Shown in pieces: positions 10,427 to 43,865 of a stretch of DNA of 64,000 bases. How positions within the stretch are numbered: position 1 is the first letter of the stretch; every line of letters starts with the position of its first letter. This DNA comes from Pseudoscleropodium purum (Eukaryota > Streptophyta > Bryopsida > Hypnales > Brachytheciaceae), in NCBI GenBank assembly GCA_963969395.1, contig OZ017796.1:15378501-15442500 (forward strand). Direction: 5' to 3'. The notes beneath the pieces are model-generated. The model had not been told where the DNA came from. It searched no databases and worked only from the letters and a program-made list of their open reading frames with translations. A program made the translations under genes and the position numbers.

Positions 10427-10682
10427 TGTCAAGGACACGTTTGAGGCAACAAGATTATTAAATATAATGTATTAAATTGATTCATAGAAGGAAAGTATAG
10501 TTTGACATGTGATAGAAACAAGATTACTAGGACATCAAGAATTGTGTTGACAAGACTAAAGACTAAATAATTCCTTCTTCCTTTCTATAGGTCCCAATTC
10601 GGTTATAACTCTATAACTATAAGATAGAAGAGGTTTAGTATTAAGTATGTCTAAATTAAGCTAATGTCATCCATCCATGACA
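10427..10682 (-). repeat. 3' LTR of the gypsy element
   Basis: 256 bp, with TG...CA-type termini (tgtcaagg / catgaca). It differs from the other LTR at five sites (g/a, c/t three times, a/g). The target duplication tgcca precedes it. Confidence 0.95.
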
Positions 10683-10697
10683 TCACCTCCCCCTTTA
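10683..10697 (-). other. Polypurine tract of the gypsy element
   Basis: On the minus strand aaagggggaggtga directly abuts the LTR start tgtcatgg. This is the plus-strand primer site, and it fixes the element's orientation. Confidence 0.85.
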
Positions 10698-13800: not shown

Positions 13801-14512
13801 GTATTTTGTTGTTTACCTTGACTACAATATATAAATGTGGAATGTTCAATAGTATCATGATCATGTTCAAGTACAAGTGTCCTTCCTTTCCAATCTATTG
13901 TTGGATTATAAAATTCCAACCAATTTTGGCCTAGGATTATGAAATTGTTTAGTGACTTAATTAAGTTAAAGGATACCTTGCACATAAAACTATTGATTGA
14001 GAAATTTAATGGCTTTGTCTCATGGATAACTATACTTGATTCAATGGTTCTACCATCTACAACCTCTACTCAGGGTTGACAGGACGGTCGGACGTCCGGA
14101 CGCGGACGCTGTGTCCGCAACGTCTGCTGACATTCGCGGACGCCGTCCGCCTGTCCCCCTGTCCGCCCCAATACCCGTCCGCCCCGTCCGTCCGCCTTCC
14201 GATGGCGGGAGGGACGCTGCGTCTGCTGGCGTCCGTGAAGACGGACGTCTGAGTTACGGACGCCTTTTTCGGGCGGACGTAGAGATTTGTCAACCTTGCC
14301 TCTACTTGTGCTGGTGTATTTCTAATCTTAGTCGAAAACCCATATTTTTGTACAAAATTGAAATCAATTAAAGAAGTAGTTGCTCCAGAATCTACAAGAG
14401 CATTTACTTCAATCTCCTTGTCATTTTCTAAAACTTTTATAGGCAATAAAAAACATGGTACAGGATTGGAGGTTACAAAGGGACCTTGTTGTGTAACATC
14501 AAGAGTGTTCAA
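10893..14512 (-). pseudogene. Gypsy pol: protease, reverse transcriptase, RNase H, integrase (broken)
   Basis: The order on the minus strand is: aspartic protease with V-D-S-G-A-T (near 14385-14400); the MITE at 14071-14298; reverse transcriptase with Y-I-D-D (about 13050-13070); RNase H with E-T-D-T-S and Y-T-D-H-K; then integrase with an H-H-C-C zinc finger (G-H-F-G ... C-D-T-C) and a D..D35E core. Deleting the MITE with one target copy (236 bp) leaves protease and RT in one frame. In-frame stops lie at 12792-12794, 11193-11195 and 10893-10895. The second core aspartate is asparagine (S-N-Q-G-S-Q-F where S-D-x-G-S is usual). The protease frame differs from that of gag, so a frameshift, programmed or accidental, separates them. 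Confidence 0.93.
14071..14298. mobile_element. 228-bp hAT MITE inserted in gypsy pol
   Basis: The left end is cagggttgac and the right end gtcaaccttg (one mismatch). A perfect 8-bp target duplication cctctact flanks it (14063-14070, 14299-14306). The whole element is GC-rich, with at least 15 GTCCG/CGGAC pentamers, unlike the AT-rich host element. Its left about 100 bp and right about 110 bp align with the two ends of the 9750-bp hAT element at 21129-30878, for example the shared ccgtccgccttccga and ggcggacgtagagatt stretches. It is therefore an internal-deletion derivative, with no coding region, that would need transposase in trans. Confidence 0.95.
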
Positions 14513-15525: not shown

Positions 15526-15781
15526 TATCAAGGACACGTTTGAGGCAACAAGATTATTAAATATAATGTATTAAATTGATTCATAGAAGGAAAGTATAGT
15601 TTGACATGTGATAGAAACAAGATTACTAGGACATCAAGAATTGTGTTGACAAGACTAAAGACTAAATAATTCCTTCTTTCTTTCTATAGGTTCCAATTTG
15701 GTTATAACTCTATAACTATAAGATAGAAGAGGTTTAGTATTAAGTATGTCTAAATTAAGCTAATGTCATCCATCCGTGACA
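15526..15781 (-). repeat. 5' LTR of the gypsy element
   Basis: 256 bp and about 98 percent identical to the 3' LTR. It contains a TATA-like tatagaaa on the minus strand (15688-15681) and, 29 bases on, the segment complementary to the primer site. The target duplication tgcca follows at 15782-15786. Confidence 0.95.
15684..15688 (-). promoter_or_regulatory. Candidate TATA box of the LTR promoter
   Basis: Minus-strand cctatagaaag. The distance to the start of the LTR segment complementary to the primer site (15659) is 29 bases, a normal TATA-to-start spacing. Position and motif are the only evidence. Confidence 0.45.
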
Positions 15782-15786
15782 TGCCA

Positions 15787-20839: not shown

Positions 20840-21128
20840 TTCTAAGTCTCCAGATGAAGAACCTCAATCGGATCCCAAATTTGAATTTTCCTTATCTCAA
20901 TTGCTAGATCAGCCTCTTTTGCCATCAATTCTTAGATCGTTTTATGAGCACCCGTAAAATGAGGCCAGTCCTTCTCAACTACTCAAACAACCATGCTTAG
21001 AGTTGCGGTGGTATGGAAATCTCTAGCGAGACGCTCGAGTGTTAATGATTTTGCTACAAATCTAATGTGTTGAGTCCGGTAGTCGAGAAGTGACGTTTGA
21101 AGGAAGTTTTGAAAGACTAAATAAGGAC
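20840..21128 (+). pseudogene. Decayed LTR ORF, copy 2 (5' part), cut by the hAT element
   Basis: The frame reads E-E-P-Q-S-D-P-K-F-E-F-S-L-S-Q-L-L, then L-R-W-Y-G-N-L and V-T-F-E-G-S-F-E-R-L-N-K-D, breaking exactly at the hAT target site. It resumes at 30887 with Q-Y-Y-C-M-V-R. There are several stops. At one site (near 21055) this copy has CAA where copies 1 and 3 have a stop, which points to C-to-T decay in those copies. Confidence 0.5.
21121..21128. repeat. 8-bp target duplication of the hAT element, left copy
   Basis: ataaggac, repeated exactly at 30879-30886. Its second base is T and seventh is A, matching the hAT preference. Confidence 0.95.
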
Positions 21129-21310
21129 CAGGGTTGACACAACGTCCGGACGCGGACACTGTGTCCGTAGCGTCTGCTGACATTTGCGGTCCCCGCGGAC
21201 GCAGCGTCCGCCGGGAATGCCCCGTCCGCCTGTCACCCCGTCCGCCCCGTGCGCCCCGTCTGCTTTGACGGCCCTATTTCCCCCGACCGCCCTACCCAAA
21301 CTGCCCCGCG
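21129..21310. repeat. Left terminal and subterminal region of the hAT element
   Basis: It starts with cagggttgac and continues as a GC-rich array of GTCCG/CGGAC repeats to about 21305, where composition falls to AT-rich. It aligns with the left end of the MITE at 14071, including the shared tccggacgcggac and cgtctgctgacatt. Confidence 0.9.
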
Positions 21311-21649
21311 GTCACTCCTTTAATTTTTAAACAATTTAAAAGATTATAAAGTTTGACCATGAGTCCATGATAGTCTTGAAACTATGAAAAAATTCCAATT
21401 CATTTTCAGAAGGCAAACTAAAAAAATTTGTGACTTCAAATATATATATATACTATTTAAAAAATCGAGATCAACACAAATACAAACATAATCAATATGG
21501 GCAAAATGTATTCAATTTAATGTAGAAAACCATACATTGTGCACATTTGGCTAATTGCACATATAATTTTTTTCATTCCAACTCTATATTTCTAAACTAA
21601 TTTTTAATGCCTATATAACCTATTCAACTACTACTTCTGCACTACCAAT
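21311..21649. other. AT-rich 3' flank of the kinase-like gene inside the hAT
   Basis: No gene is seen. It is the region between the GC-rich left terminus and the kinase stop codon, and presumably holds the kinase gene's 3' UTR and poly(A) signals. Confidence 0.4.
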
Positions 21650-23142
21650 CTAATATAAATGGCGGAAATGTTCATCTGGCATCGGCCAACGATATGTATT
21701 AGAAAATCGTGTAATCACATGGGCCAAACTAGTATTTTCATCGTCAGTCTTCGAAGAAATGCGCTTCAAGTAAGCATAAAACACTTTTGCAAAGTCATGA
21801 AAGGCAAATTGTGTCGCACTAGGTGTTTTTCGTAGCACGTTGAAATACGCCTCTGACATGTTGTTTCCATTCATCCGCCGAGCAATTTTTCGAATGGCAT
21901 ACTCTTCCGACTTACGTGAATACATCGGAATGACTTCCACATCTGCACCTGCTTTATGTAAATATGCAATACGTGGATCCACCCACCATCTCCTCTGCAA
22001 AGTTTGTTTCATCTCATTTGCTGATGTAAATGTGTACAAAGACTTCATTGGCTGAGAAGCTAAGGTGGTCATGCCCCAATCGCAAACTCCAATGTACACA
22101 CATGACTCATCCTCTGGAAAATGCAACAAGATGTTGTCCGGAGAAAGATCATTGTGCAAATGTCCAGCAACATGCACTGCATACATTATATGCATAAACG
22201 CCCATGTCAACTCCGTGCGCTTCTTCCGATATCGTCCTAAATGGTGAGCTTTTACAACCTCCTCTTCGGTTGGATTCGTATACATCAAACGGATTTGAAT
22301 GTTGTCTGGAAAGTCCTTATCCATATTCAACATTTGTCGAAGAGTTCCACCATTCCACCATTCCACCAATATGCATAACCTTCACACGTCGTTCCGTGCA
22401 CCGCAGCAAACCGTATCACACCCGCGTGTGGAATTCGAACAGCCATTGATTCGTTTTGATGTTCTAACTTTGCAAGATCGGGTCGAGTTTGGTGGTGAAT
22501 GGATTTCTTTGCCACAAACTCCCAATGAGGAAGTATTCTTGGACATCCTTCAATATGAACCTTTCGAATCGTTGCATATCCACCTCTCATCGTTCTATCA
22601 TCAACAGCAATCACGCGTGTTGTATTTGGAAGTGCTATGAGGTGCCGTTTGATCCTTTCCGCTTCAGCAACTCCATCATTGCTTTTCCACCAACCAATTG
22701 AACCAACTCGATTGTGCGTTTTGGCGAATGGAGTACATCGCCCCCTAAATAAGTCCTCTTTCAGAATCACTTCTTCAAACTGGGCGTCATTGGGTCGATA
22801 TTCCTTGCCATATTTAACCAAAATGACTTTGGAATTCCACAAACCCTTGTTCTCCAAACATTTGGTGAAGTACGTTTTATGCATTTCGTCATGCCACTTC
22901 GCCACATTCAATGCATCCAACAACATCTGTGTCATGTCTACCTTGAATTTAGACACGCACTCCTCTTGATATCTGATGTACTTATTGTCTAAAGACAATG
23001 TTGTTTCCGATTCATAAAATTGAACGATGCGCTCAATTATGAATTTTTTACATTCCTCCGAAGGACTTTGGCGAGCTACCTCCAAGTTTGATGGTCCCTC
23101 TCCATGTTTAAGCTTCGTAACCTTCTTCTTCCCCTTCGTCAT
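21650..23142 (-). pseudogene. Kinase-like gene carried by the hAT transposon (frameshifted)
   Basis: ATG at 23142 (MTKGKKKVTKLKHGEG). An N-terminal region of about 180 residues has no recognised domain. It is followed by a protein-kinase fold: a degenerate glycine loop (R-G-G-Y-A-T-I-R-K-V), a VAIK-like lysine (F-V-A-K-K), a catalytic loop H-N-D-L-S-P-D-N-I-L-L (HxDxxxxN) and a D-W-G in place of DFG. The HxD arginine is asparagine, so it is a non-RD kinase. Catalytic Lys, Asp, Asn and Asp are all kept. Three tandem copies of an 8-bp unit (22345-22368) shift the frame; two copies would give one frame of 494 codons. With three, one part ends shortly after 22327 and the rest is out of frame. It is divergent to the transposase and within the same TIRs. 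The family is not identified. Confidence 0.8.
22345..22368 (-). repeat. Triple 8-bp repeat that breaks the kinase frame
   Basis: Three exact tandem copies of tggtggaa (minus strand). With two copies the frame reads Y-W-W-N-G-G-T-L-R; with three the upstream frame runs on to an early stop. This looks like replication slippage. Confidence 0.85.
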
Positions 23143-23332
23143 CGTGACAAATGAAATTGATATAGATCAAATTTTTTAATTTGAAATTGAATTCACGCGC
23201 AAGTGTCCAAAAAATTGGCAACAAGGAGGCCCCAATAAACCACTCTTGCCTTGCCTCGGAAAGGAGCCAATGGAGGATGAACCACCAAGCTCTCCGCTCC
23301 ACCTTGCATTCACAAGGGGCAAAGCAACAGTG

Positions 23333-23720
23333 ACAATGCGGACGGCCCATCCGCCCTATCGGACGGCCCTAAACCGTCCGCCCAATCGGATGGGCCGGGG
23401 GTGGCGGACGGATCGGCCGTCCGCCTCCCCGAAACCCTAGAGCCCTGTCCGCCCGATCGGACGGCCACGGGCGGACAAATCTGGCGTCCGCCCGATCGGA
23501 CGGTCCGGGGGGGCGGACGCATCGCCGAAATGAGGCGGACGAGACGGACAGGGCGGACGGCGGACAGGTATCGGGGCGGACGGGGTCTGGGTGGACGGGG
23601 GTCTGGGCGGACAGGGCGGACGGCGGATAGGTAACCGGGCGGATGGGGTCTGGGCGGACGGGGGTCTGGGCGGATGGGGCGAACGGGTACGAGGGCGAAC
23701 GGGGCGATTTGACCCTAAAG
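23333..23720. promoter_or_regulatory. GC-rich pentamer block upstream of the kinase-like gene
   Basis: Almost entirely GTCCG/CGGAC and CGG-rich repeats, with units such as gggcggacgggg and ggtctgggcgga repeated in tandem near 23575-23690. It begins about 190 bp upstream of the kinase start. Its right edge contains two ccctaaa motifs (23711-23733) and a TATA-like gataaatag on the plus strand. It is probably the kinase promoter with transposase-binding sites. A second, rightward promoter is possible. Confidence 0.55.
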
Positions 23721-26504
23721 CGACCCTAAACCCATATTTTGCACGATAAATAGAGGTCTTCATGGCACTGTATAGTTCAACTAACTTTTCATTCATTCAA
23801 TGTAAAATTTGAAATTAAAAAAGGTAGCCTTCCTTTATGACCAAATTTATGAATTCTTGGTAAATGATATTTTTGTACAAAGATATGAGCTAAAATGTGC
23901 AAAAATTCACGAAAGGATTGCGACGTTTAATATATGTACCCAAATATTCACGTTGCATTGTGTATAAAGCAATTGTAAGAAGGTAGTTGAATAAAAATTC
24001 TACTATTAAATTGAATTAGTTGACGTCTAATCACTTAGTAAACCACTAAATGTCCAAGTCCTTGCAAGTGTGTTTTGGCTATCGAAAAAGAGCATGGACT
24101 TATAGTTATCCCCAATGAAGCAAATTGTTCTTTTTTCAAAATCTAATGGTATAGATGTTTAGCCCCTAAAGTTCTTTTCACTAAAAACACTTCAAAACTG
24201 CCAGTAGTAGTGCAAATACCAAGTCTTGGAAGAAAAATACTTTTGGGCATATAAAACCGTAGGATCTTGTAGTAAATTAGTTGGAAAAGATGTGGAAAAA
24301 TTTTTAGACAAATCCACCATTTGGATTGAAAGATATTAGATATTGAGTGTTTCATTTAAGGGGGCTACTCAATTATGTCTATTAATGAACAATTGGTAGG
24401 CTAACAAACCTAACTTAACATGTATTTTAATATTTGTTGCAATTGTTTTAGGAATATTATAACATAATACCATTATAATATTCTTATAAATGATATAGTA
24501 CTAAATCATTTCAAAATCAACAACATTTGAACACAATCTGTCAATCTTGTCTTCCATACTCCTTTAATGATATATATATATATAAATATATATACATATA
24601 TAAAATATATTAGATAAATCAACATGAACAAATCAATGATTACATATTTCATAGATCTATTCTTCATCAATCAAATAAGAGTGCATGTTCAAATATAGAC
24701 AAAGATGGTTTCTCCATTTATTCCCAAAAATTAAATAAACAAATAGAGAAAGATATGAAGTGAATGTTACTTGGAAAATTGAAGTGAAAGAAATTGAAGT
24801 ACTCAATTGCATTTTATTAAATTCGAAAATTGCATGTGGATAGCATGAATTAATCTTCATAGATGCTAAACTCATACGAGTTGCATTTCAACATTTATGA
24901 TTTATGCAATTGATTGAATTGAAAGCTCTTGTAATTACATTTTCAAATTTTCGATTCAATCATTCAAATTTACGAGAGTGATTTATGATAGATTTATAAC
25001 TTTAAATGTGAAAGCATTCAATGCCTTTATGCGTTTGTTCATCAATATATTACTTTTAGATAAATAATATATATTTTTTATAATATATGCATAAACCATT
25101 ACATTAAAAAAAAACAAAAACTAAGAGCGAAACCAAATAGGCTGGTCAAATGAAGAGAACAAGAGAACAAGAGCCCTACGAGAAAGCAAAGGAAAAAAAA
25201 AATATCAAAAGGATTCAAAGGAAGGAGCAAGATGCATTCTTGCAAGACCGTAGAATACATAATGATTTCAAAATCCAAACACAAATATATTTTCTATTTC
25301 AATGAGAGTCAAAAATAAACTCCCCTGCTCTCAAAGATTGTGCAATGTACACGTTATACAAAATGAACATATAACAGAAAGAGTAGAAAACATCGTTTAT
25401 CATGATTGAAAACTGAAATGATTTTTTCTTTCTATGTAGAATATTTTATGAAATGTAACAATGTAGTTAATTATCATAGTAATTGGTAGAAATCTTTGTG
25501 CAATACATAGAAACATTTCATTCATGTGGAGTTTTTTCATTTATTTAGGATAAAAATTGAAGTATTATACTCTACAAAGTATAAACCGAAAACAATATCA
25601 TATACCTAAGTTCAAAAGTTTGCAATTGTTTCGTGAATTCATTTTGAAAACTCAAACAAAGAAATATTTTATAATCAATATTTTGTTCATTTGAATCATT
25701 TCAAAATTCGAATTCCGAATTCAATTCCTATTTATAATAGAAATTATGTTTGTCAATTTTTTAGATCTTTAAATAATGAACCCTCTTTTTTAAAATTAAT
25801 ATTTAAAAACATCTGAAATAAGAATATTGGAATTACCCTTCAAAATAAATATAGCACATGTATAAGTGTATAATGTATTCTACTCAACCAACTCAAGTAA
25901 CGAATTTTTCTATGTTTTTAAGGAAAAATATAGCCATATATGATTTAAAAGTTAAAACATTGATTCTTTTTCTTTGTTTTCAAATCTAATCAAAATTTCT
26001 TTAAAAAATATGAAAGACTTGATGTTCATTTGAAGATCATGATGCACTTCTAATTAGAAAACACAATCTTTTATTAAATATCATGAGGTTGAAATCCATT
26101 AAACTGTTATTCTAATTATGTATTGGGGCCTTTTTTTAAAATTTCATTTGCTTATGATGAAAAAGGAATTGATTATTTCTGCAAAACATTTGATTTCCTA
26201 ATGAACTTTAAAAAAATCCCCACTATCTTCAGATCTTCTCAAAACCTATTTAGAAGGATAATATGAGTAAATAATCCAAACATATTCAACTTAACCACAT
26301 TCCCCTCATTCGTAAAACAATTTAGGGGAGAAAAGAAAAGGTTTAGGGTAATTAGGGTATAGGGTTTAGGGTTTACATTTTTTTTTAAAATGATAAATCA
26401 ATTACATTGATCCTCATTTAGCAGTGATTATTAGGTGTTGTTTTTTTTTGAAATGTTATCGCTCTTTTTGAGTAATATTGGCCTCTTAGGATGCTCCAAT
26501 GGAC
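23721..26504. other. AT-rich internal spacer of the hAT element
   Basis: About 2.8 kb with no credible coding region on either strand. It includes a TA-rich microsatellite (about 24570-24610) and a telomere-like tract ttagggtatagggtttaggg near 26350. It may have arisen from older nested insertions, but no boundaries could be set. Confidence 0.5.
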
Positions 26505-26745
26505 AGCTGGGCGGACGCCGTCGACAGTCAGTGTTTAAGTGGGGCGGTCGGCGTGTCCAAAGCGCGGACAACGTCGGAAGGCGGACAGTGCGGACAGTCC
26601 CGTCCGACCGCCCCGTCCGTCGCGTCCGATCGCCCGTCCGACCCGTTTGGCCTGTCCACCCGACCGCCTCGTCCGCCCCGTCCGACCGGTCCGTCCACCC
26701 TGTCCGCCCGTCCGCTTCAGCCCCGTCCGGGCCGTTGCTTGTTTT
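26505..26745. promoter_or_regulatory. GC-rich pentamer block upstream of the transposase
   Basis: GTCCG/CGGAC repeats at high density, ending just before an aaaccctaaaa motif and a TATA box. Same style as the terminal blocks and the block at 23333-23720. It probably combines the transposase promoter with transposase-binding sites. Confidence 0.6.
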
Positions 26746-26790
26746 TGAACAGAAACCCTAAAAATGAACCTTTAATTTTCTGGAGGGGAC

Positions 26791-26797
26791 TATAAAT
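26791..26797 (+). promoter_or_regulatory. TATA box of the hAT transposase
   Basis: tataaat preceded by a GC-rich block and followed, about 250 bases on, by the first ATG (27045). A possible 5' UTR intron runs from a donor near 26890 (ttg/gtaatg) to an acceptor at 27043 (ttgtcag). Confidence 0.55.
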
Positions 26798-27044
26798 GTT
26801 AGAAGAGAAGCTTTGGTATTCACTCTTGAAAAATCGAACGCTAAGATTTTCAAGGGCTATGAGCTTCAATTTATTGAGTCTCTTGCTTGGTAATGCATAG
26901 TTCGGTGGACGGGCGGGCTTTGATTTTCAAAGCTTTGTGTGACTAATTTCATTGATATTGTATACATTGTCATGTTGTGGGTTTCAAATTTAAAACATTT
27001 TATTGATTTATTTTGAAATTGAGGTAAAACATACACTTGTCAGT

Positions 27045-29330
27045 ATGGTGGCCAAACCGACGGGGGATTTTTCTCCTTGGTATAGTGTGCAAGAGGGTGG
27101 TAAAGTAAAATGTAGGCTTTGCAAAGCGAGCATGTCAAGAAAGCTCAGCCGTATGTTCAACCACTTAGGCTATTCTGGGCCTGGAGGTGTACGTGATAAA
27201 GAGGTGAGCCTTTGTCCACGATTATCAATGGCAGTTCGAGATTTATTTCGGCATTGCGAAGGAGTTTTTCCAAAACGCGTTGTAATGGACAATGTGGATG
27301 GCAACCCTGGCCCTTCAGATGTTCAAGAGTTTTCGGCCGGAAAGGCTGTGTCGCATTCTGACCACGAAGATTCTTGTCTAGCGTTCAAAGAATTGGTATC
27401 AATGGTATGTGCCACAACTGAAATGACTTTGAATACGGAAGCTTCTGGTGAACGTGAAACCCCGAGGGCATCAAGTTCTAGGCCTCAGAGGCAAGGTAGT
27501 TTAGTGAATGGGTTTGAAGAAGGTCATAGACGCAAATTACATTCAGTGTGGGCAAATTTTTTTTATTCGGCGAACATACCATTTTCCGTGGCTCGAAATC
27601 CAGCTTTTAAAGAAGCAGTGAAGAAAACGGCTGCGTTTGGTAGGCCATACATTCCTCCCTCATACCACGACCTTTGGTACAAATTGTTGAATGAGGCGAA
27701 GACTAACATTCAGACACAATTGAATGCACGGACCGAAGATAGCATTCGAAAATTTGGAGCAACATTGTCCATCGATGGATGAAGCTCAGTGACTAATCGA
27801 CCTCTCATCAATGCCATGCTTGTATCATCCACAGGTGAAGAATTTCTTGGATCTGTGGATACAAGTGGTTGTGAAAAAAATGCGGAGTACTTGGCAGCTG
27901 TGTTGGAAAAGTTCATTGAACAAGTGGGGTCCAAGAACGTCGTGTTAATAACTACGGATAATGCTCCCGTGAATCCATCCGCATGGGATGTAATATCTGC
28001 AAAATATCCTCATATTTTTTACCAAGGGTGCGTGGTATATGCATTGAATTTGTTGTTGAAGGATTGGGCTGCACAGAAATGGATTGCTTCCAAATTGGAT
28101 AAAGGAGTTCTTGTAGCTAAATTTATTAGAAAGAGACATATGCCGCTAGCTCTATTGCAAAAATATTCGCCAAATTTTGGTCTCTTGATGCCTGGGGATA
28201 CAAGATTCGCGTCTAAATTTATCATGATGGAGCGTTTGACAAAATTGAGAGGAGCATTGAAACAAACGGTGGTAGATCCGCAATGGGTTGAGTATGTACA
28301 TACTCTCAAGAAGAAACGTAGAGCCAAAATCTAACCAAAAGACTTGGCCTTAGCGGTGAAGAAAATTGTTTTTGATGACCATTTTTGGAATCGGTCCATC
28401 AATTATGTGGAGATGGTTGAACCAATCATATGTGCACTCCGCAATTTGGATTCAAAATCACCATGCATGGGGAAGGTGTTGCATATCATGAGGAAGTTAG
28501 AGAAGCACGTGAACGGATTACAAAGTCCACCATTTTGTTTGCTAGAAGAACTTGCAATTCCATTGGTACAGTCTTTTTATGCCCGAAGAAGAATGGTGGA
28601 CAACGATCTCCAATCAGCCGCAGCTCTTTTGAATCCATACCTTCTTCATGACAAAGAGTTAGCGGATGACGCAGATGCAATGTCAAGATGTAAGAAAGTT
28701 TTGGAGAGAATATGTAAACCGGATGAATATGCAGCAGTGGTGAAGGAATTTGTAGCTTTTCGACACAAGGAACCTTCATTTCACAATATGTTGAATCCGG
28801 GAGATCAAATGTTGTCCGCACATACTTGGTGGGATTTTGAAGGTGCATGTGGCAAGGTTATAGCTCCATTAGCGAAGAGGATATTGGCTCAACCGGTGTC
28901 ATCATCTTCATATGAACGAAATTGGAGCAAATATTCTTTTGTTCACAACAAATCTCGAAATAAATTGAAGTCGGAGAGAGCAGCGGATTTGGTGTACGTG
29001 TATACCAATTCCAAAGTATTAAACGCATCGAAGGAAAAAGATGAAAAAAAATGGTATAATGATAATGTGGATCCGATGGAATTAGAGGATTCAAATAGGC
29101 CGACGTTAGAAGACGATGATGACGAGGATTTGGAAAGGGCCCTTTCAGCTGGAGATGGCGGAGATGACTTCAATCGTGCGACAGCATGGGGAGATGAAGA
29201 CGTTATGCAAGACTTTTCCAATTTGGTGAATGATACGCATGATTATCATCTAAACCGCAAGGATGTCGTTCCCGACAATGCAAACGATGCATATACCTTT
29301 TGTGAAGACGAAGACAATGTAGGGGTATAG
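27045..29330 (+). pseudogene. hAT transposase (BED finger, DUF659, hAT-C) with in-frame stops
   Basis: ATG at 27045 (MVAKPTGDFSPWYSV); the TTG at 27003 is unlikely. An N-terminal BED-like zinc finger (C-R-L-C ... N-H-L-G-Y) is followed by a DUF659 transposase core with the first catalytic aspartate in L-S-I-D-G and a second in T-T-D-N-A-P. The C-terminal hAT dimerisation region is clear: W-W-D-F-E-G, S-S-S-Y-E-R-N-W-S and N-K-L near 28830-28965. Three stops, all in one unbroken frame: TGA 27780-27782 (a tryptophan is expected, D-G-W), TAA 28332-28334 and TAG 29328-29330. No frameshift. Each fits a single transition. After hAT-C comes an acidic tail (D-D-D-D-E-D). The domains are consistent with DNA cut-and-paste in the nucleus. 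Confidence 0.9.
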
Positions 29331-30401
29331 GCGAATCTACCTTCTTTAACTGCATATTGCAATGGAATGGGATTCTTGAATAGCGAAAACATTCTATTGG
29401 AAAAGGCAAACGCTATTGCCAAAGAGGTGAAAATCAATGAGAATGCTATTGGTGATGATGAGAGAAATGAAGAAGTTTTAATTTCTCAATCTCCATCTGT
29501 GGCATTAAATGTAGTGCAAGGAAACGACAAAAGAGAAGATGCGGTCATGGAGGTGGACGTTCCAAAAGATGTGAGCAACAATAGTGGTGATGAGGGGGAA
29601 CCAAATATTGCGGTACAAAAAAATAATGATTCACTTGGGATGACAGTCACAAATTCGGCAATTGTGAAGAGTGATAAAGGAAAGGAGCCAATGAAGTCAA
29701 TTTTTGAAGTACCGAGATCTAGTGCTCTTCCACCAATACCATTGAAGTCTGTTAGCACACGATTGAATGATTCTCAGAGCTTTGGATATGGAAAACACCT
29801 AATGAACATTTCCAAAGAAATTTCTACAGGCGGTAATTTACAGAAAGTAGCGTCATCACCTACAAGCCTAAGTGATACGGATAGTGATCGGATGCCATTG
29901 GCATCTTTGCGTGCTCGCATTTTAGGAAAAGGAATGGCGCAAGAACCCATCAAATCAACAAACGGCACTCTATTACTTCAAAAGAAAGCCAAAGTGGAGA
30001 TAACCGTTCATGGACATGTCAACCCTACATCGAGATTGATGGTTCAAGAATCGAGTAACGTGAAAGCGAAAAGAGAAATGCAACCTTTTACTATCTCTCC
30101 AGTGAAGAATAGGACCCCTCTTGATGAAAATGTTGCTACTTTGTCAAATAGAAAGAAAAGAAAGGTTCCTATTCCAAAAGCCTTTAATCGTTCTGTCAAA
30201 GTAAAAAAAGAAAAATTAAATTTGAAAGAAGGGAGTAAACCTACTTCGAGAGAAGACTCGAAGGAGACAACGATACTTAATTCCAACAATGAAGATGACT
30301 CCGACAATGAAGATGACTCCGATAATGAAGATTTTGAACGGAGAGCTGCAGGAGAGAGTAGTGGGGCTGAGGTTAGAGGAGATGTGGATTGGCGTCCATA
30401 G
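29331..30401 (+). pseudogene. Low-complexity nuclear-type extension or separate ORF after the transposase
   Basis: After the TAG at 29328-29330 the transposase frame stays open to a TAG at 30399-30401; an ATG is present at 29367. The 344 residues from there are rich in Ser, Lys, Glu, Asp and Asn, with a basic stretch that looks like a nuclear localisation signal (R-K-K-R-K-V-P-I-P-K) and an acidic, nearly repeated tail (N-E-D-D-S-D twice). It has no catalytic motif. Either it is a C-terminal extension of the transposase cut off by a CAG-to-TAG change, or a second cistron or exon. Confidence 0.6.
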
Positions 30402-30749
30402 GAATTGTGGAGATGTGAATTTAGATGTTTGATTGTTTAGTTGCTTATGATATATGGAGCTCATGTTGACAAATGACAATGGTTTCTTCAATCATTTTAT
30501 TATAAAATTGTTTGTTTATTGATGATATACATCTCGCTGGATTTTAAAGTGATTTTGTTTCTAAATCAAAATGAAATTCAACAAAAAAAATTAAAAATAT
30601 ATTTCATATTTTAGCTTTTACATAAATAGTGATATACAACTCTATTGAATCGCAATTGCAATATAAGAAAAATTAAAATCAAAATGACTTCATTCTCAAT
30701 CTCTCATTGGTGAAAACAATCAAAACCCTAAACCCAAAACAGGTTTTCT
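30402..30749. other. AT-rich 3' flank of the transposase
   Basis: No gene is seen. The aaaccctaaaccc motif at 30722-30736 sits just before the GC-rich right terminus. Confidence 0.5.
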
Positions 30750-30878
30750 AAGCCGCCCCGTCCGCCCGGCCCCGCGCGTCCGCCTTCCGACGGCAGGAGG
30801 GACGCTGCGTCTGCTAGCGTCCGTGCGTCCGTAAAACGGACACTATTTTGGGGCGGACGTAGAGATTCGTCAACCCTG
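30750..30878. repeat. Right terminal and subterminal region of the hAT element
   Basis: GC-rich GTCCG/CGGAC array ending ggcggacgtagagattcg then tcaaccctg. It matches the right end of the MITE at 14298, including gggacgctgcgtctgct. The target duplication ataaggac follows at 30879-30886. Confidence 0.93.
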
Positions 30879-30886
30879 ATAAGGAC

Positions 30887-42356: not shown

Positions 42357-42668
42357 TTAGTACAATCGTAAAGATTTTGACCCACACAAATGATAACTCC
42401 CTGTAAATGTCTGCAAGTCATGCGTGACGGGGCTGTACGGAAGCATGCAATTCGAATTGTCAGATATCGCGATTCCAGCTCGGCAATTTCGCAAGTTGCT
42501 ACCATTCGGACAGATCACAAATTCACCTTGCTTCCAATCACTAAACCCCTCGTCGAGTTTTAATAAGTGATTCTGGCATTCCCATCCACTGCAGGTCAGA
42601 TCTGACACCGCCAGTTTCACGATGTTGTACCAGAAATATTTTCCAGCGCACCCACAAAAATCGATCAG
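42357..42668 (-). CDS. Unrecognised Cys-rich exon of a possible gene
   Basis: On the minus strand an acceptor (gattccag) ends at 42669 and is followed by an open frame to TAA 42357-42359. It reads L-I-D-F-C-G-C-A-G-K-Y-F-W-Y and continues with C-S-G-W-E-C-Q-N-H, F-V-I-C-P-N-G-S-N and N-C-R-A-G. Seven cysteines in about 100 residues suggest an extracellular or metal-binding fold, but I recognise no family. Upstream lies another exon-like block (43250-43393) with consensus splice sites; the phases of the two do not join directly, so the gene model is unresolved. The diverged left copy has a stop early in this frame, so only this copy could be coding. Confidence 0.3.
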   Translation of the reverse strand: MIDFCGCAGKYFWYNIVKLAVSDLTCSGWECQNHLLKLDEGFSDWKQGEFVICPNGSNLRNCRAGIAISDNSNCMLPYSPVTHDLQTFTGSYHLCGSKSLRLY

Positions 42669-43865
42669 CTGGAATCAACATGAACTGTAGACTCCACCAA
42701 CCATAACAAAGGCTGGCATTTTGACACATGCACACTCCACAACAAGCTCACAACACAGAATTCACTGCAGGGTTCAATAGAACCTGCGCTTCTAGAGAGA
42801 CCCGCACAGGGGTCCTAGTGGCCTTCATTACATACCCGGAATAACCGGAAATTAGAGTACACTGAAATCAAAGTATTTCAGAAGAGGATCTGCATGCCGA
42901 ACAGAGTACAAAGGCGTGCTATGATGTATTGAAGCGACTCTACACTTACTACCCAGAAGCAAGGAAAGCATGGCTTTGAGCTTCCAGTCCCATCGGCAGC
43001 ACACCTATTTCGCTCCAGTTCATACCAATGGCACAAATATAGGACAGACACTTCAAGAATGTCTAATCGAATAAAAAAATGCACTCACAGATATATGTAC
43101 AAACATCGAAAAACGAAACTCTACATTAAACATCAAACATCAATATAAAAACAGAAACCAAACAAAATAACTCTAACTACGTTGTTCAAAACGAAAGTCG
43201 TTGGACTCACAAAAAATCAACCCTACTGATCATTGAAAAAAACCCTTACCTTGACAAGTTCGCAAAGGCCTTACACGCTAGATTCCGGACGACTGCGCCA
43301 CACTTGAGCACAGGGTCATAACTGCATATCCAATCCGACACCAAATCGACTCCCAATTCAGTGCACGCAATGGCCGACACAATGGTTCTGTCTCTGAAGA
43401 ACGCAAAGAAAATTAAAACAACAACGAACAACAAGAACAATCGAAAAATAATCCTCACTCAAGAGACTGAGCTCTCAAATGAACGAAGCAGAATCAACAC
43501 CTCTACCAATCTTCAACGTCAAGCTCCAAGTGCAACGGCCGTTGAGCATGCATTGCTCCCGCCTGCACGATTTAAACGATAGTAAGGCGCCGTGAAAGAA
43601 CATGCAACTCGGACATTAACACGCAAGCAAGGACTGAAACCTGAAGTACAACGAACTCATAGCACGAAAAGATAGACACACAGCAAGGTTCGACACTTGC
43701 ACATGCTCGAGGAATGAGACATGTACGTTTCGGACTGGCCCATTCGTCCAGGAACAAAATTCGAGGACTTCGTGTCGTCGACGAATGCGGACTACAAAGA
43801 GGTCATACAATTGAATCTGACTTAAATCATCCAAGCGCCTGAGCTTCTGAAATGAAATCTGAAGC
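42642..43865 (-). repeat. Right arm of the inverted duplication
   Basis: Reverse complement of bases 1-1224, with one substitution seen in the first 1219 bases. Here the arm continues leftward into the Cys-rich exon, and rightward (past 43865) toward the Bruno-like gene. The partner of that part lies outside the window. Confidence 0.95.

Follow-up and report, generated by a model that had tools for sequence, protein, structure and literature searches.

Can a cut-and-paste transposon own a protein kinase? The question is raised by a 9,750-bp element at positions 21129..30878 of a 64,000-nucleotide stretch of the genome of the moss Pseudoscleropodium purum (contig OZ017796.1; hereafter the window). 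The element belongs to the hAT superfamily and, besides a transposase gene, it holds a divergently oriented gene for a protein-kinase-like product. To our knowledge, other hAT elements normally encode transposase alone. A first-pass annotation of the sequence took the kinase to be a resident gene of the element and not a chance insertion. Here, we examine that proposal, and what the kinase might do, by comparing the window element with its relatives.

Results

Ends and insertion site of the element

The element is delimited by perfect 10-bp terminal inverted repeats (TIRs), namely CAGGGTTGAC at 21129..21138 and GTCAACCCTG at 30869..30878, the left repeat being in plus and the right one in minus orientation. 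Identical 8-bp target site duplications (TSDs) of sequence ATAAGGAC abut the element on the left (21121..21128) and on the right (30879..30886). The flanking DNA belongs to a dispersed repeat, of which two further copies lie in the window at 39315-38764 and 54995-54731 (both minus strand). They are about 67-72% alike and align across both sides of the insertion site, with the element absent. A third copy, near 8.5 kb, is also continuous across the site as judged by eye. Together with the many further copies described below, the perfect TIRs, exact TSD and related empty sites bear out the annotated boundaries, which had been called firm. Short TIRs beginning CAGGG are a hAT motif; both CAGGGTTGAC and the TIR of a second family, CAGGGTTGTCAAA, begin in this way, and the exact 8-bp TSD of the window copy is a further hAT feature. 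The window also contains, at 14071..14298, a 228-bp non-autonomous relative that consists of the two ends only and has an exact 8-bp TSD, CCTCTACT, on each side.

Both genes of the window copy are broken

The kinase gene (21650..23142) is a single frame in most copies. In the window it is split over two minus-strand open reading frames, 23142-22327 and 22369-21650. The break is caused by three head-to-tail copies of an 8-bp unit at 22345..22368. The extra 8 bp is absent from 18 of 20 aligned kinase sequences (19 copies and the window); the window and copy L011 have one private extra 8 bp each, 22 alignment columns apart. The window kinase scores 23.1 bits against the Pfam Pkinase model, for which the curated cut-off is 31.7. 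The catalytic Lys, a Glu, the Asp of HND, an Asn and the Asp of DWG are invariant in 25 of 25 aligned kinases. Likewise, the catalytic K, the D and N of HxDxxxxN and the D of DxG are retained in all 20 genome copies. These are the catalytic residues within the Lys, HxDxxxxN and D-W-G positions that the annotation had named.

The transposase gene (27045..30401, plus strand) encodes a DUF659/hAT protein with a long C-terminal tail. Its frame contains stops at 27780, 28332 and 29328, and all three had escaped the earlier reading of the sequence. Pfam detects DUF659 (E = 2.3e-22) and the hAT dimerisation domain (Dimer_Tnp_hAT, PF05699; E = 7e-9, 35.8 bits against a cut-off of 21.4). The DUF659 and hAT-C parts of the annotated BED/DUF659/hAT-C architecture therefore stand; the zf-BED match falls short of its cut-off (E = 0.013, 15.9 bits against 20.6). 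Both genes are present inside the element, as had been described, but neither protein is encoded intact. Because of the extra 8-bp unit in one gene and the three in-frame stops in the other, both are dead in this copy.

The kinase accompanies the transposase in most copies

We searched the genome (313 Mb in 52 contigs) for relatives of the element. Counting the window itself, the left end gave at least 40 matches, of which the 39 others are at 92-97%. For the kinase there were at least 86 full-length matches at 93-96%, 33 of those listed being without a stop. The transposase gave at least 41 matches including the window, the others at 91-93%, and 8 of those listed are without a stop. By coordinates, at least one genome copy has kinase and transposase frames that are both stop-free.

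The 20 best left-end matches after the window were each fetched as a 10-kb stretch. These copies are at different sites and, where the right end was found, have TSDs of their own. The kinase is complete end to end in 19 of them, and kinase and transposase sequences are both present in 18. Among those 18, the transposase is one full match in 14, lies in two pieces in L010 and is partial in three; L013 and L027 have no transposase inside the 10-kb stretch. Six of these copies are covered over the whole element length by a single match. For 10 copies the right end could be located, always with an 8-bp TSD (6 exact, 4 with one mismatch); for the other 10 it was not found inside the 10-kb stretch.

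Linkage was also measured from each gene in turn. Of 40 non-window transposases, 15 are accompanied by a listed kinase in the orientation expected and 2 more by a listed left end alone, 17 in all. The distance between kinase and transposase, by coordinates, is 5.2-5.8 kb and once 8.7 kb. A 350-bp probe of the expected position, made for 20 of the 23 remaining transposases, hit the kinase in 16 cases and missed it in 4. Pooling these tests, 33 of 37 transposases have at the predicted position either the kinase (31) or a listed left end (2). Conversely, 120-bp probes for 20 kinases spread over the 86 listed found transposase for 16, other element DNA for 2 and nothing for 2; one of the kinases with no match does have a listed transposase 8.7 kb away. 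No near-identical host kinase was found outside elements among the matches listed.

Thus, the kinase is neither confined to this copy nor missing from the other full-length members; most of the copies tested have it together with the transposase. The window element, although neither of its genes is alive, belongs to a two-gene hAT transposon that has been amplified to high copy number. Gene capture by hAT elements is known, and on that ground the window copy might have picked up a host kinase in a one-off event. The 86 or more full-length kinase matches, the linkage tests and the second family described below refute this idea. Pack-type elements and other cases of gene capture similarly have a foreign gene between TIRs. 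They differ in that a piece of a host gene is captured in one or few copies, whereas here a gene with an intact frame is common to most copies and to two distant families.

A second, distant family has the same gene pair

Using a distant kinase, P0054, as a query identified a second kinase family in the same genome. From 81 scored rows, 57 were kept (31-40% to P0054); those set aside were window-family members and one weak fragment. The query P0032, run on the same genome, gave among the matches listed only the window family again. The second-family copy that we read is 16,110 bp long. Its 13-bp TIRs, CAGGGTTGTCAAA, are perfect, and its TSD, GATTGGTT, is exact. Its kinase (524 residues, no stop) is divergent to a DUF659/hAT transposase (1,170 residues, one stop). 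The kinase scores 39.9 bits against Pfam Pkinase, above the cut-off of 31.7. Identity to the window proteins is 25-26% for the kinase and 35% for the transposase.

A 760-residue frame with a RING-like finger lies between these two genes. The finger scores 23.7 bits against zf-RING_2 (cut-off 27.3) and matches the RINGs of RNF24 and Arkadia with E values of 0.0022-0.0095. A 283-residue frame, also located between the two genes, is 57% identical to the N-terminal part of the RING-like frame. Another copy of the family, L037, shows 98% identity across the region in which the RING-like frame lies. Within the window element, no match to this gene was found.

A 463-residue segment of the second-family transposase gave 94 genome matches, of which 39 (window-family members and three small fragments) were left out. 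Thirty of the 94 are young (95-100%), and 28 of these 30 have a divergent second-family kinase 9.9-16.1 kb away. Random placement predicts 0.08 such pairs, with a maximum of 2 in 1000 trials. For the older relatives (38-60%, n = 25), a listed kinase is near 3. Starting from the second-family kinases, a listed transposase was found for 25 of the 29 best and for 31 of 57 overall. A third linked pair is suggested by kinase P0036 and transposase P0066, each of which derives from a 27,639-base contig.

Since so distant a family has the same divergent pair, the linkage of kinase and transposase is old. In both distant families most copies pair the kinase with the transposase, which makes it a resident gene; we place the probability of this reading at about 0.9. 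The first-pass proposal is, in this respect, supported, and the case for it is stronger than the annotation had put it. The kinase-bearing lineage is an old variant within the hAT superfamily.

GC-rich blocks at the ends and upstream of the genes

Counted on both strands, CGGACG is present 34 times in the ends and gene-upstream blocks of the window element (two of each), and is absent from the other 8.8 kb. GTCCG/CGGAC motifs mark the GC-rich left end (21129..21318; 8 motifs), the right end (30749..30878; 6 motifs), a block upstream of the kinase (23329..23718; 20 copies) and a block upstream of the transposase (26499..26738; 14 copies). In the one second-family copy that was read, the terminal motif marks the ends and is scarce near the genes. 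Hence, the annotated placement of each gene beside a block of terminal pentamers is correct for the window family and does not carry over to that copy, which lends no support to motif-bearing promoter blocks as a general trait of both families. Because each window-family gene has CGGACG, the motif of the ends, in the block before it, these blocks may in that family be further binding sites of the transposase, through which it would control both promoters.

Inner blocks that resemble the ends could, alternatively, be the old inner ends of two unrelated, adjacent elements now moved together by their outer ends. We consider such a macrotransposon very improbable: neither CAGGGTTGAC nor its complement occurs internally in the window element, the full length is covered by one match in 6 of 20 copies, and the second family has the same layout.

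Selection on the kinase and mutation of the copies

Variants among the copies were compared with the neutral expectation for N/S under the same mutation spectrum, using 1000 simulations; the test ignores the relatedness of the copies. For the kinase (20 sequences), variants seen once have an N/S of 1.03 relative to neutral. For shared variants the value is 0.66, and 14 of 1000 simulations were as low. The corresponding values for the transposase (15 sequences) are 1.17 for singletons and 0.88 for shared variants (190 of 1000 simulations). Thus, the selection test called for in the first-pass annotation reveals purifying selection on the kinase in shared variants; for the transposase the signal in the 15-sequence sample is weak and does not establish constraint. 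Shared stops are below expectation in both genes (3 against 5.6 expected for the kinase; 2 against 6.5 expected for the transposase).

Purifying selection alone does not tell for whom the gene is kept. Passenger genes are common in transposons, and the kinase might be useful to the host, or be a mere old passenger with no role in the life of the element. Against this, the many near-identical copies decay neutrally once inserted, as singletons show, yet variants common to several copies are under constraint; moreover, two families whose kinases are 25-26% alike have both kept the gene linked to the transposase. Selection at the level of the element is therefore the simpler account, and we regard a passenger or a host-serving gene as improbable.

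Of the variant letters, 74% (kinase) and 77% (transposase) are changes of C to T or G to A, which suggests cytosine methylation of the copies. The median pairwise divergence of the kinase is 3.4%; amplification is therefore recent.

Relatives and predicted fold of the kinase

A sequence search of the database gave 56 relatives of the kinase, and a profile search, in which the best 7995 candidates were scored, gave 97. The named sources are Ceratodon purpureus, with two clusters (that of P0037 has 126 members), and a Bacilli metagenome-assembled genome (MAG), where the 2.9-kb contig is perhaps contamination. No relatives were found in viral contigs. In genome contigs the sole match covers 41 residues, at 43%, and comes from a contig of a bacterial MAG. 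In a tree, the window kinase groups with P0001 and P0002. The structural model of P0001 predicts a protein-kinase fold over residues 172-489, preceded by a helical N-terminal part. The best Foldseek matches (FGFR2, ULK1, PINK1 and others) were rejected as a group assignment, being remote fold matches at 11-16% identity among the 50 shown. A host ancestor was not found among the relatives recovered. By its modelled fold and catalytic residues, the gene product would be a member of the protein kinase superfamily, forming a family of its own, and phosphotransfer is predicted.

The transposases have a long C-terminal tail

The closest database relatives of the window transposase are P0057-P0077 (n = 21), 19 of which are 908-1123 residues long. 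Nineteen relatives align on through the C-terminal tail beyond the third stop of the window copy, whose own tail ends at 30401. Most of the transposase relatives terminate near a conserved SSGAEVKGDSDY-like motif. Within the clade, 19 transposases have tails that measure 226-439 residues, compared with 0-22 in four ordinary relatives; in this measurement, 8 of 32 proteins were without the motif used for measuring. The tail of P0066 is 18 residues and perhaps cut short. In the model of P0057 the tail is predicted to be disordered and, because of the tail, the mean pLDDT is low (49.6). All 11 PDB matches of this model at E <= 0.001 in Foldseek are Hermes. Ser and Thr together are only slightly commoner in the tails (0.11-0.20) than in the core (0.09-0.15).

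Discussion

What would a transposon do with a kinase? The targets put forward in the first-pass annotation, namely the transposase, host silencing and replication timing, are conjectural. Given a resident kinase and a tail predicted to be disordered, the transposase is the first candidate substrate. The kinase would phosphorylate it, chiefly in the tail, and so set the timing or strength of transposition. Tentatively, we favour such regulation over other roles, while rating it at rather less than an even chance. The gene makes the timing of movement, or the evasion of silencing, by a cut-and-paste element open to direct experiment, for which there is a single enzyme and an evident candidate substrate. 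Maintained as it is in a very successful hAT lineage, the kinase would count as a signalling enzyme that a transposon encodes.

The main alternative is that the kinase acts on host proteins of silencing, chromatin or the cell cycle, allowing escape from repression or well-timed movement. The plant cut-and-paste transposon VANDAL21, a Mutator-like element, is helped by an accessory protein, VANC21, that is described as a suppressor of silencing (PMC8616336) and would do by another chemistry what is proposed here for the kinase. That example, and the additional RING-like gene of the second family, which would fit a host target, make this alternative nearly as likely as action on the transposase. 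Roughly three quarters of variant letters are C to T or G to A, as if the copies were methylated, and this points the same way. On the other side, nothing in our data ties the kinase to a host pathway, whereas the tailed transposase is its one constant partner. VANDAL21 resembles the elements described here in being a plant cut-and-paste element with an accessory protein; it differs in superfamily and in that VANC21 is described as an anti-silencing factor, whereas the accessory protein here is a predicted kinase.

More speculatively, and in our view doubtfully, this old moss lineage could have its own signalling kit. The kinase and, in one branch, the putative RING-finger protein would phosphorylate and turn over either the transposase, via its tail, or host silencing factors. 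If so, a eukaryotic DNA transposon would be run by its own phosphorylation-ubiquitylation circuit.

With other members of the hAT superfamily (Hermes, Ac and plant DUF659/hAT-C elements) the elements described here share 8-bp TSDs, CAGGG TIRs, DUF659, hAT-C and a Hermes-like core. They differ in the divergent kinase gene, the long transposase tail with its predicted disorder, their lengths of 9.7 and 16.1 kb and, in one family, the RING-like gene. Our search of the open-access literature listed no kinase-bearing hAT element, although one may have been described before. In Coccidioides, transposable elements are associated with protein-kinase genes, and selection for the association has been proposed (PMC5872316). 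As described there, the association is an enrichment of gene-ontology terms among loci within or close to elements of several types, rather than a kinase resident in a hAT element. In mosses, for example Ceratodon purpureus, protein-kinase gene models that occur in many copies may have their explanation in a resident transposon kinase.

A short, MITE-like relative of the two-gene hAT transposon is also present in the window. This sequence, 228 bp in length (14071-14298), has the ends CAGGGTTGAC and CAAGGTTGAC and is flanked on both sides by the target site duplication CCTCTACT. It is situated between two direct repeats of 255 bp (10429-10683 and 15528-15782) that are 98% identical. Also enclosed by the repeat pair are two minus strand reading frames (13985-12792 and 12689-11193) which, judged by eye, look like parts of a Ty3/gypsy retrotransposon polyprotein. 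Separately, the window contains an inverted repeat with 1,224-bp arms (1-1224 and 42642-43865). The arms are 99.8% identical and spaced 41.4 kb apart.

Kinases of the window family also occur as close pairs in the host genome. Among the kinase matches listed, at least 12 pairs are separated by 30 kb or less. The partners are in opposite orientation in 10 of these 12 and, in several pairs, have equal scores and stops. These close and mostly opposed pairs would be either large palindromes or an assembly artefact.

The distant, second family of kinase-bearing hAT transposons in this genome includes a 16.1 kb element encoding a kinase, a RING-like protein and a transposase (G000 C44:12302641-12318750; L035:6206-10000, L036 and L039). 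A fragment of a window-family kinase frame lies nearby (L035:2-814).

One database member of the window kinase's family, P0002, is 72% identical to the window kinase. The source record is a 2.9-kb contig from a Bacilli MAG. This contig is probably plant DNA that was binned among bacteria.
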